Made by a program: the position numbers and the translations under genes. Under the pieces are notes generated by a model. The model saw nothing but the letters and a program-made list of their open reading frames with translations. It was not told the DNA's origin and searched no databases. From Trametopsis cervina (Eukaryota; Basidiomycota; Agaricomycetes; Polyporales; Irpicaceae): a stretch of DNA of 64,000 nucleotides. This document shows, in pieces, positions 10,710-15,020 of this stretch; positions within the stretch are counted from its first letter, which is position 1, and each line of letters starts with the position of its first letter. The DNA lies in contig MU278358.1 of NCBI GenBank assembly GCA_022385755.1, positions 759,133-823,132 of the forward strand, given 5' to 3'.

Positions 10710-12223
10710 TCATGTGAGATGATGAGCGAGCTGACGCCTATCTGGGGCGAGCACACAAAGCGCGATGAAAGAACCGATGAGCAGACCCGTCAGGAAACAG
10801 GAGGTCGTTCGAGCGACTGCCTCGAACGTCCTCGCGCTGTTGTGAGGACGGAAGACCTTCACCTGTTCACTAGGCTGAGTGAGGTCTTCAAGAACTATGT
10901 TCGCAGCAATCCCTTCCGCTTCTTTTACCACTGCGACCTCTTTCTCTGTGGGCTCCTCGACATCCGTCATATCGTCAGTGAGGATATCAATAGATCCCAT
11001 ACGGAACTTCTGCATGCTGGCTGCCGGAGAAGGGGGAAGCGTAGGCGAAGGTGAAGGCGCGAGAGAGAGAGGCATATTTGCTATGAGTTTTCTCGGCCTG
11101 TTCCGAGCTTCGTACGCCTGCGCCAACTGCTCGATGCCTCCAACGATCTTCTCCATCCGAGTTGCGTCTGCAAGCGTCTGCACGCGCTTTGCCTCGCGCA
11201 TCTCTTCCCCTACCATGTGTACAATGCACCGAATTAATTCCCGGATCTCGGGGTGCTCTCGTGACCACCACTGACCGGGCCATTGGGCGATGACACAGGA
11301 GAGGTCGTAGACGTATGCCGTTGCGGTTGTGAAGTCATCCGAGATGTGTTTGTGGAAGTAAGGGCGAAGCAAGGCTATCGCGAGGCGCACGGAGCCTGCG
11401 GTCGTGTCCCTTAGCCGCTTTTCAAGCGGTAGTTGCAAGAAGCGGTCGGAGACCACCTTGCAGAATTGGCGGTAGCTCGGCTTTTTGCGAGTGTAGTCCC
11501 AGCCAAGTCTGAAAAGAGGCGAGTTTTTCGCGTCGTTGATGTCGTGGCATAGAAAATATGAGGGAAGGCGATTGAGAATTTGAAGAAGGGGAATGGACGC
11601 CAATACGGCACTGCCTGGGATGCGTCCGCCTACTAGGACGTCTTGAGACTCGAGGGCGAATCGGTACCATCGCCAGTGATCTTTGTGTCGTCTGCAGGAA
11701 GGACATAAGTCACATATTCAGCCGGTATAAAAGACGATGCTTACTCTTGGGGTGTACCCTGCATGAGCAGTTCAACTGCCGTGACGGAATGCCCAGCGAC
11801 AGCTCTGGCATCGATAACAGCGATCTCTACGTCGTGCTTCACATTTGTGTGATACCGTCTGATCGCCTCCCATATAGCCCATGCAAAGCTGAAAGATGTC
11901 GAAATGTAGGGTGATGCTGAGCGAGTGGTCCAGTCCATATGCTGGATCACGTCGGCATAGGTCGATGCCGTGGGCGTAGAGGAAGCAGAAGTGGACGGAC
12001 CCGGGTCATCAGAGGAGATGTCACTGCCAAACTTGCTACCAACAAAGTAGGAATCGGCACTGTCATCCTGTGGAGGCTGCCCCTTGGGGGTATACACGCG
12101 ATACAAGAACGGATTCCCGGAGAGGAGCGTGTTGAAGGTCACTTCGGACCCGAATCCGTACTGTGGAAGTGCGTTCATATCAGTGGATGATAACGCAGGA
12201 CTCGTTGGCCTGGGGGACGCCAT
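10710..12223 (-). CDS. Tail-anchored protein, DUF7587-like
   Basis: Two exons: 12223-11745 and 11691-10710, giving 486 residues. The intron (11744-11692, 53 bp) is GTAAGC...CTGCAG. The start is the first ATG; a further upstream start would need TTG. The N-terminal half contains F-L-Y-R-V-Y-T-P-K-G and, later, H-M-D-W-T-T-R-S-A-S-P-Y and H-D-V-E-I-A-V-I-D-A-R. From memory these match fungal proteins annotated as DUF7587, whose function is unknown. A Ser/Pro-rich acidic linker follows. The last ~30 residues carry one hydrophobic segment (F-L-T-G-L-L-I-G-S-F-I-A-L-C-V-L) near the C-terminus, typical of a tail anchor. It is downstream of, and on the same strand as, the repeat precursor gene. Confidence 0.75.
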
Positions 12224-12329
12224 GATGCGCAATCGTCAACGATGCCAGCGGGACGAAGTGTAAGTGAGTAAAGTAATCGGGCAAGGAGGTGGAAAGGTGC
12301 TCACCTCGACCGGGCGAAGTACATATACT

Positions 12330-13160
12330 CGGGCTAGCCCATGCTTGAGCAATGCTGCACAATCGGAGGGTGACCACGCCTAGACCACGAGGCATTCATC
12401 TCGTCCGCAGAAATGCGAAGGGGGAGAACGGCTCCAGGATCAGCGGGTTCGCGGATATCGTGATCAAGTGGACCCGGCGAGGGCTGAGCCCAATCGATGA
12501 GGAGAAAGGCGCGTCGAGCCATGTCTCCGCGGTGTCTCGCTTCGGAGTAGAACCTGCTTGACGAGATAGACGGCGAGGGACACGTGTCCAGCGCTACAGC
12601 TCAAGTAGAACGGAAATGAAGGGCTGCATTTAGCATACTTGGGGTGTCCATCCGCTATGAAATGACCCATAAGATAAACGGGTCGTGCCAAAATCGGAGA
12701 AACAGTACTGACTGCAGCTCTTAAGGACGCACCCTCGCTGAGCAATGCCGCCGATGTTGTGTCCACAAAAGCATGAATGAGCGGCATCCACACTAAACTA
12801 AATACTCAGGTGTTGTAGCCGCGAGTATCGGTGGTGCAAGCAATATAGGCTGCCGAGAATATTGAGATGAGATCGACTGGTATGGTGAGGGGTAATGCAC
12901 GCACCGTAGCTATCCGCCTGCGTCCGGTGAGTTTTTGTCTCTCCTCAGGATGCTGCCTACGCATCACAGTTGGTGTTGAGAATAAGACATACGTCATAAC
13001 AGTGATTGAAGAAAGAGCAGAACTGAGAAATACAGTATCTCTCATGAGGTGTGCGGGAATGTTGTATTTCGTCGAACGTAAGCCTGAGGTTTGATGGTAG
13101 GTCGGCAATGAGCCGCCCGCGCGCATTCCAGCCCCACAAATGGCCCAGAAAGCTGAACTT
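12330..13160 (-). pseudogene. Possible decayed or unrecognised gene
   Basis: Several minus-strand frames look protein-like: around 13050-12810 a hydrophobic stretch (V-F-L-S-S-A-L-S-S-I-T-V-M-T-Y-V-L-F) followed by basic residues and a second hydrophobic stretch, and around 12790-12470 another frame. I could not join them into one intact gene with convincing splice sites. It could be a small multi-pass membrane protein, a pseudogene or chance. Confidence 0.25.
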
Positions 13161-13289
13161 CACTCCTAAAATAGAAATCATACACACATGGAGGAAGGTA
13201 TGAGGCTCAGTCACAATCGTAAATTTCGTAAATACGAGTACACCATTTCCCTAAAGAAATAAACCATACACCATCGCATGTCACAATGC

Positions 13290-14797
13290 TCAGTCAAGGT
13301 CGTTAAGGCTGCGGAGGATCACAGGGTGGAACCCTGGGATCGCACTAAAGTGGGGGAAGGATGGCACCTGACCAGATCCAGGGAGTAAGACTATGGGCCT
13401 GATTGAAACACGGGTAAACACGGTGAAAACATCACATGAGAGATATAACACTTACTCGCGACGTTGGGGGAGTTTATTGTTACCACTGAAGAGGGTTTCG
13501 AGCACATCGGCTAGCTCGTCACGGCGCTGGTTGTTGTCTCCGCCTAAAAGGGGTCCCAGAGTGGACAGAGCGAATTTGAACAGTGACCCAAGCCCAAGGG
13601 CCTGGCTGTCTGCATCTTCACGAAGCTGGAGGCTGGCCGATCCGTCAAGAATCTGCTTCAGGACCTCGTGAATAGCATCGGCATCAGCACGACGCTGGCT
13701 GCCGTTGTTGTCATTGGATCCACCTCCGAAAAGGGCGCCAAGAGCCGTCTCCGCGATCTTGAAAATCGAACCGAAGTTGATAGCCTCACTTGTGTCCGCC
13801 CCGTCACGACGCTGAATACTGTGCGAAGCTTCGAAGATTTGCTTCAGCACCTCTTGAACATCGTCACGGCGCTGGTTATTGTCACCCCCGCCAAACAGAG
13901 AGCTGAGGGCGGTCGTGGCAAACTTGAATAAGGAGCCTAAATTGAGAGCCTGACTGTCCACATCGTCGCGAAGATGGAGACTGCCAGAGGCATCGAAAAG
14001 ATGTCTCAGTACTGCGTCGGAGTCGGCACGACGTTGGTTGTTATCATCGCTGGAGCCTCCACCAAACAGGGAGCCCAACGCTGTCGTTACGACCTTGAAG
14101 ATCGAGCCGAAGTTGATAGCTTCGCTAGCATCACCATCTTCACGACGCTGCAGGTTGCCAGATGCTTCAAGGATTTGCTTCAGGACGTCCCCGATGTCAT
14201 CGCGACGCTGGTTGTTGTCGCTTCCACCAAAGAGCGAACCGAGTGCAGAAGCGGCAAACTTGAAAAGAGAGCCAAAGCTCAGCGCGCCGCTCGTGTCGTC
14301 GCTCCCGCTCGCGTCAGTTGAGTTGGCTACAGTGTTATCGGCGCCTGGTGAAGAGAGGCTGCCAAGCAATGACTGGAGGAGGGGCCCAAGATCGGGCGTG
14401 CTGCCGTTAGTGGAGTTGCTTCCTGCACCCTCGAAGGCGGTGATCGCGTCTTGAATTAGCGAGCCGAGGTCGACAGGTTGGCTGTTGTCCCCGGGTGTGT
14501 CCGTAGGCGCGGATGTATCGTCAGTGTTCTCGCCATCGCGGCGTAGTTGCTTCCCGAAGCCCACAGCACTCTCGGCTTTTTCTTTTAGCTCCTCGAAGAA
14601 GGAACCGATGTCCAGTGCGCTACTATCCGAGCTATGGTGTTTCGCATAAGGATGTTGTATTACAATGATAATCGAGGTGAGACTTACGAAGCAACCGGGT
14701 TGCTGACTTGACGCCCAGAAACAGGGCGCACGGGAGCTGCAAGCGCAGGAGAGGCAGCGGCGACAAGAGCGATGGCAACGAGGGTGGAGGAGCGCAT
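13290..14797 (-). CDS. Secreted Kex2-processed repeat peptide precursor
   Basis: Three exons: 14797-14688, 14631-13456, 13398-13290; phases agree, 464 residues. Residues 1-20 form a signal peptide ending A-L-A. From residue 66 the chain is cut into segments by nine dibasic sites R-R (67-68, 179-180, 199-200, 237-238, 291-292, 311-312, 350-351, 406-407, 427-428), nearly all written Q-R-R and followed by D, E or A. Two unit types alternate five times. Type A (~32-38 residues) carries G-S-L-F-K-F-A-x-T-A-L-G-S-L-F-G-G. Type B (~18-22 residues) carries E-V-L-K-Q-I-F-E-A-S. This is the design of fungal KEX2-processed repeat proteins, relatives in layout of pheromone precursors and repellent peptides. 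Residues 430-464 are a non-repeat Pro-rich tail. If the last intron is not spliced, the protein stops at E429. The function of the peptides is unknown. Confidence 0.85.
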
Positions 14798-14890
14798 GCT
14801 GGTATATATAGATGTATGGTTAAGAGGTTGGTTGAGATTAGGAAGAGGTCGTAGAGTACGAAAATGAGCGAAGAACTGTAAAAGGTCGAA

Positions 14891-14940
14891 CTGCAAGGGT
14901 GGTCAAAATCCATAGCAGTCGGGTATACGAACCTACTCAC
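14891..14940 (-). other. 5' UTR intron of the repeat precursor gene
   Basis: On the minus strand GTGAGTAGG... to ...CCTTGCAG, 50 bp, lies in the leader about 95 nt upstream of the ATG. It has good consensus and a typical length. Confidence 0.5.
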
Positions 14941-15020
14941 CGGCCGGCGTCGACTGAAGGGAAAGGTGGCTCAACGAAAGGAGTGAGGAGCTGAAGAACA
15001 TGGCAAGGGCATGTGCGGCT

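Follow-up and report, generated by a model that had tools for sequence, protein, structure and literature searches.

A predicted kexin-processed precursor with alternating hydrophobic and acidic units in Trametopsis cervina and its agaricomycete relatives

The precursor gene and its repeat array

Trametopsis cervina is a polypore with a white-rot lifestyle. The window analyzed here, a stretch of 64,000 nucleotides from its 29.4-Mb genome assembly, carries on the minus strand a gene of three exons that extends from start to stop codon over positions 13290..14797 and encodes a precursor of 464 residues. A hypothetical protein deposited publicly for this species (BDW22DRAFT_1429339; Polyporales), referred to below as P0001, has the same sequence as the spliced product, and the initial annotation had given exactly this span, stop codon included. 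Exon 1 (14688-14797) and exon 2 (13456-14631) are separated by intron 1 of 56 nt (14632..14687, GTAAGT...CCATAG), and exon 2 is separated from exon 3 (13290..13398) by intron 2 of 57 nt (13399..13455, GTAAGT...AATCAG). Both are short GT-AG introns, and their splicing agrees with P0001. Retention of intron 2 introduces an in-frame TAA, with the protein ending at 429 residues. A paralogue search of the T. cervina genome, in which few candidates were scored, matched the gene itself and nothing else, and no Pfam match above the cut-off was obtained for P0001 or for its six relatives described below.

The features of the precursor are likewise given by their positions on the minus strand. The chain starts with a signal-peptide-like segment (residues 1–20, 14738..14797) that lies within exon 1 and ends in ALA. 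It was read from the sequence by eye as a hydrophobic stretch up to ALA-AP and is a putative secretion signal; a comparable start (MRSS, MRST, MHSS or MRAS) is found in four of the six relatives. The following pro-region (14538..14737) contains the first RR site (QLRR), a stretch designated N1 (14550-14627) and intron 1. It leads into an 82-residue linker (14292..14537) rich in Asn, Ser, Thr and Asp, which contains three sequons and two further stretches, N2 and N3, and is fused to the first repeat unit.

The repeat array consists of five hydrophobic units (A) and five acidic helical units (B) in the strict order A1-B1-...-A5-B5, so that the five alternating pairs of two unit types proposed in the initial annotation are borne out. 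The first pair comprises A1 (14202..14291), with the C-terminal motif NQRR, and B1 (14142..14201), which ends in LQRR. A2 (14028..14141) again ends in NQRR, and B2 (13968..14027) in LHLR, a single arginine in an L-x-x-R context. These are followed by A3 (13866..13967, NQRR), B3 (13806..13865, IQRR) and A4 (13689..13805, SQRR). B4 (13620..13688) has the second single-arginine end of the L-x-x-R type, LQLR. The array closes with A5 (13521..13619, NQRR) and B5 (13458..13520, PQRR), the most diverged of the B units. The A core has the consensus A-[LI]-x-[FL]-G-S-[LI]-F-K...L-[FL]-G-G. The motif [DE]-V-L-K-Q-I-[LF]-[ED]-[AG]-S is common to B1, B3 and B4, and B2 and B5 depart from it. Exon 3 encodes a C-terminal tail whose last residues are SLNDLD; a terminal DLD is present in five of the seven family proteins, P0001 included.

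The five A units have core identities of 48–81%. Pairwise comparisons of the A cores (n = 10) gave pS values of 0.61–0.96 and pN/pS ratios of 0.17–0.42, and those of the B units (n = 10) gave pS values of 0.52–1.07 and pN/pS ratios of 0.26–0.95. The high synonymous differences, together with the pN/pS ratios, mean that the copies are old, coding and constrained, the A units more so than the B units. The array does not represent a recent repeat at the DNA level; a tandem-repeat finder applied to positions 13000-15000 returned no entries. Resemblance to the A units extends upstream of the array. N1 was equaled as an A-like stretch by 1 of 2000 shuffles, N2 by none of 2000 and N3 by 49 of 2000, compared to 585 and 570 of 2000 for two control stretches of the linker, which are not A-like. 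N1 and N2 look like decayed A copies, and N3 is possibly another. The presence of such copies in the pro-region and the linker suggests that the array was once longer.

The surroundings of the gene were surveyed by a Pfam run on 30 of the 80 window ORFs of at least 130 residues, the precursor gene included. The matches above the cut-off include an ORF with DUF7587, one gene with Nudix/DUF4743 and one with DHH-DHHA2, and also ORC5, a carnitine acyltransferase and a protein kinase. The DUF7587 ORF (E 5e-16) lies on the minus strand at window positions 11744-12235, about 1 kb downstream of the 3′ end of the precursor gene. No RNA families were found in the window, and a viral contig search gave 54 pattern matches, none of which was confirmed.

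Cleavage sites and predicted products

The precursor contains nine RR sites, compared to a mean of 1.0 and a maximum of 6 in 100,000 shuffles of the exon-2 protein. The sequence QRR occurs at eight of the nine, the first site being QLRR, and the next residue is Asp or Glu at seven sites and Ala at two. The near-constant QRR context followed by D, E or A, first described in the initial annotation, is thus confirmed. The published cleavage statistics of Kex2 indicate a preference for acidic residues at P1′, P2′ and P4′ (PMC2515848), with which the acidic residue after seven of the predicted sites agrees.

We compared the precursor with the definition of the KEX2-processed repeat proteins (KEPs), which calls for an N-terminal secretion signal, at least four fragments delimited by KR or RR, at least three similar repeats over at least 15% of the protein, and a kexin in the genome. 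The putative signal at the start of P0001 is a candidate for the first of these features. The nine RR sites delimit ten fragments, the leader and the tail included. The repeats from A1 to B5 cover residues 151–428 of 464, the repeat definition having been applied here directly to the sequence. The T. cervina genome contains one match to P_proprotein, the P-domain of kexin (contig C5). By its repeats and cleavage sites the precursor can be placed among the KEPs, with release of its peptides predicted, and the earlier proposal of a Kex2-type precursor with two alternating unit types is supported.

The number of peptides initially proposed, ten, does not follow from these sites. Since B2 (LHLR) and B4 (LQLR) lack an RR end, RR cuts alone cannot yield ten peptides, and two monobasic cuts would be required in addition. 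Cutting at RR alone would give eight fragments between the first and the last site, of 112, 20, 38, 54, 20, 39, 56 and 21 residues. Just A2, A4, B1, B3 and B5 would be freed in this way; A1 would stay on the 82-residue linker, and B2-A3 (54 residues) and B4-A5 (56 residues) would remain fused. The ends of B2 and B4 fit the extended Kex2 motif, to which L-x-x-R belongs (PMC8528282). Products of mushroom KEPs expressed in Pichia were apparently cut after a single Arg (PMC9769878).

The eight predicted products all have an acidic pI (4.05–4.46), and none contains Cys. The B units have a helical moment of 0.46–0.56 in four of the five copies (column permutation, 0.0028). For the A core, permutation gave 0.0002 over a window of 15 columns that we chose ourselves and 0.059 over the full 21 columns. 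An AlphaFold2 model of B2-A3, for which four units of the same gene served as input, consists of two helices (residues 2–20 and 30–44) with a pLDDT of 64 and a pTM of 0.31.

A family in two agaricomycete orders

Apart from the query, a protein search with exon 2 identified a single relative (E 2.1e-8), P0002, which comes from Flagelloscypha sp. PMI_526, an agaricomycete of the Agaricales and thus of another order than T. cervina. A search with P0002 led to three more Flagelloscypha proteins (P0003, P0005 and P0006) and to P0004, from a JGI contig of 1,609 bases, and a search with an alignment of the six proteins added P0007, from a JGI contig of 1,242 bases; the protein searches scored about 8000 word-sharing candidates per query. 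The contigs of P0004 and P0007 are presumably metagenomic. P0007 is KEP-like, and its source annotation, “putative effector of murein hydrolase”, is probably mistaken. P0003, P0005 and P0006, for which the contig size is the same (3,051,417 bases), perhaps form one cluster.

P0002 aligns to P0001 with 45.3 bits, compared to 13.0 bits for the best of 600 shuffles, which destroy the repetition of the protein. The similarity of P0003–P0006 to P0001 is not above that of shuffles. Unlike these whole-protein shuffles, a test of single units is independent of the repetition. Against a unit of P0002, it gave 0 of 1000 shuffles for A1–A4 and 13 of 1000 for A5. With one unit of P0007, the corresponding values were 0–3 and 25 of 1000, and with another they were 1–10 and 202 of 1000. 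Nothing stood out against units of P0003 and P0005 (best, 14 of 1000). On these comparisons we regard homology of P0001 with P0002 as firm and with P0007 as likely, and P0003–P0006 as joined to P0001 indirectly, through P0002 and P0007.

The layout found in T. cervina recurs in the relatives, with four to eight A copies per protein in regular alternation with acidic segments; the Flagelloscypha proteins P0002, P0003, P0005 and P0006 have the same A/B plan. When the units were cut by patterns written after the sequences had been seen, and with the T. cervina spacers taking in the first, acidic residues of the A unit that follows, the seven proteins contained 39 hydrophobic A units of 27–45 residues (charge −2 to +1) and 32 spacers of 5–37 residues, every one of which is net negative (−1 to −7). 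Some spacers of the relatives are merely ELEAR or DIDELEAR. Outside T. cervina, 25 of 28 spacers end in L/I/V/M-x-x-R; Met is used in five of these 25 and is absent from the P4 list as given in PMC8528282. Of the 39 A units, 23 have an RR or KR end (one P0004 end was read by eye); the other 16 terminate in a single Arg, in ten cases as LFSR. In T. cervina, all five A ends are dibasic, and L-x-L-R is found at two of the four B-A junctions. The Flagelloscypha proteins differ from P0001 in that their spacers mostly end in L/M-x-A-R and span the whole range of 5–37 residues, and P0005 and P0006 also in having a second hydrophobic unit type. P0004, P0005 and P0006 combine two hydrophobic types (GFSK or GLSK...LFGG; AGLAS...FSR) with acidic spacers, which makes three unit types per chain.

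KEPs are widespread, with 7878 members reported in 1345 of 1461 strains (PMC7329392), and their functions are described as largely unknown (PMC9769878). KEPs with two motif types (77 of 1193) and with three (2 of 1193) have been published (PMC6339444). The initial annotation knew of no described member with this two-unit pattern, which does not hold for two-motif KEPs in general; for this particular type, we found no paper that names it. Searches with twelve unit strings, six of P0001 and six of the relatives, returned no paper, and a literature search for alternating KEPs had none on KEPs among the matches listed; in a further search, none of the titles listed dealt with P0001. The main texts of PMC6339444 and PMC7329392 mention neither Trametopsis nor Flagelloscypha, and the type may stand in their supplements. 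The KEPs described in the parts of Le Marquer 2019, Umemura 2020 and Vogt 2022 available to us resemble P0001 in having a signal-like start and at least three repeated units with RR between them. Strict alternation of hydrophobic and acidic units, with L-x-x-R beside dibasic ends, sets T. cervina apart, no such type being named there. CA0365 of Candida albicans has three repeats, each with an internal Kex2 site that gives two fragments per repeat (PMC2515848); it is short, and the likeness is one of description, not of sequence. Within the KEPs, we regard as new this subfamily, in which hydrophobic and acidic units alternate regularly, dibasic ends occur alongside L-x-x-R ends, and members are found in two agaricomycete orders.

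Possible roles of the hydrophobic and acidic units

We favor, at roughly even chances, the interpretation that P0001 is a secreted KEP and belongs to an agaricomycete subfamily whose products are the hydrophobic, glycine-containing and amphipathic A peptides, helices with activity at surfaces or membranes, with B as an acidic shielding spacer. The chain would enter the secretory pathway. Kexin would cut it at RR and KR and, less efficiently, after aliphatic-x-x-R, and Kex1-type trimming would take off the basic residues. The B segments would keep the sticky A stretches in solution and separate from one another up to their release. Outside the cell, the freed helical A peptides could then be active at surfaces or membranes, coating hyphae, for example, or disturbing the membranes of competitors.

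As the spacers vary from 5 to 37 residues while A is kept, A is likely to be the product and B a shielding or solubilizing pro-segment. The closest parallel that has been tested is Ece1p of C. albicans, a kexin-cut polyprotein whose other peptides reportedly protect candidalysin, which is hydrophobic, against intracellular aggregation (PMC12153327). Ece1p differs in having one toxin peptide and seven others with KR sites, and we liken the two by layout, not by sequence. By this analogy, the best reading of B is that it shields A in the same way. The strong helical moment of B in four of five copies exceeds what a mere spacer needs and counts against B as a spacer. The acidic pI of all eight products argues against a classical cationic lytic peptide. 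In the tests reported for Coprinopsis cinerea, kep knock-outs and synthetic KEP peptides gave no phenotype or antibacterial effect (PMC9769878).

Coating of hyphae is central to an alternative that we consider unlikely, in which the hyphae become covered by self-assembled, repellent-like A peptides, in the manner of Rep1 of Ustilago maydis. Rep1 and Hum3 of this fungus contain amphipathic repeats of 31–55 residues with Kex2 sites (PMC4617103), and the precursor layout and peptide length of Rep1 (repeats of 34–55 residues, PMC4617103) are similar to those of P0001, whose A core is amphipathic and whose eight products lack Cys. However, Rep1 and Hum3 have one repeat family each, and Rep1 peptides form fibrils (PMC4617103), whereas helix rather than strand is predicted here; this likeness, too, is by description. 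Furthermore, the T. cervina genome already has at least 10 matches to hydrophobin (PF01185), so that a coating role is not needed. A search of the genome for Hydrophobin_2, which was run without a positive control, found none.

The mixture of dibasic and monobasic ends could also reflect release in two stages, to which we give a somewhat smaller chance than to self-assembly. Dibasic cuts would free a soluble B-A peptide in the Golgi, and a cut at the weaker monobasic L-x-x-R site between B and A, made later or in different conditions, would activate the hydrophobic A helix. The required pattern is nearly complete in P0002 and is present at two of the four B-A junctions in T. cervina. In several paralogues, however, some A units are monobasic at both ends, and the 16 of 39 A units that end in a single Arg make this scheme less probable.

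Less probable again is a two-peptide system, in which both unit types are products that cooperate as a pair. Such a pair, acting jointly in a fixed ratio, was the function envisaged in the initial annotation, and the strict 5:5 alternation, the strong helical moment of B and the constraint on both units would be in keeping with it. The relatives argue against it, since their spacers are variable and B shrinks to acidic segments as short as 5–9 residues (ELEAR, DIDELEAR) while A is kept. In addition, B is the faster changing unit, and B2 and B4 would remain joined to A3 and A5 under cutting at RR alone.

We judge it improbable that the chain stays uncut, as a helical structural or cell-wall protein that is secreted whole. 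An AlphaFold2 model of exon 2 is a mostly helical chain, and by our own mapping eight of the nine RR sites are placed within modeled helices or at their beginnings, with the two L-x-L-R sites between helices. The model is of low confidence, however, with a mean pLDDT of 52, a pTM of 0.46 and no residue at or above 90. A continuous fold with buried RR sites had been named at the outset as a prediction that would speak against cleavage; the model does not decide for or against a folded, uncut protein. The excess of RR over the 1.0 expected, in kexin-favored flanks, and the persistence of basic cleavage-type ends in the relatives while the spacers vary weigh against an uncut protein.

A dikaritin (ustiloxin-like) RiPP precursor with modified cyclic products would have the signal-like start and the Kex2-separated repeats in common with P0001, and is very improbable, as Tyr is absent from the protein and, of five UstYa (DUF3328) matches, the nearest is on this contig at a distance of about 344 kb; a dikaritin cluster was rejected for this lack of a nearby UstYa. 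An ascomycete α-pheromone precursor was also rejected, the host being a basidiomycete and the units 20–39 residues long; none of the eight fragments between RR sites starts with the Ste13 dipeptides XA or XP, and just the tail begins with EP.

The subfamily, with its regular hydrophobic/acidic alternation in two agaricomycete orders, provides a clear and cheap test of whether sticky peptides are shielded by intervening segments in fungi more widely, as has been reported for Ece1p. It also allows one to test whether the timing of release is set by weak kexin sites.
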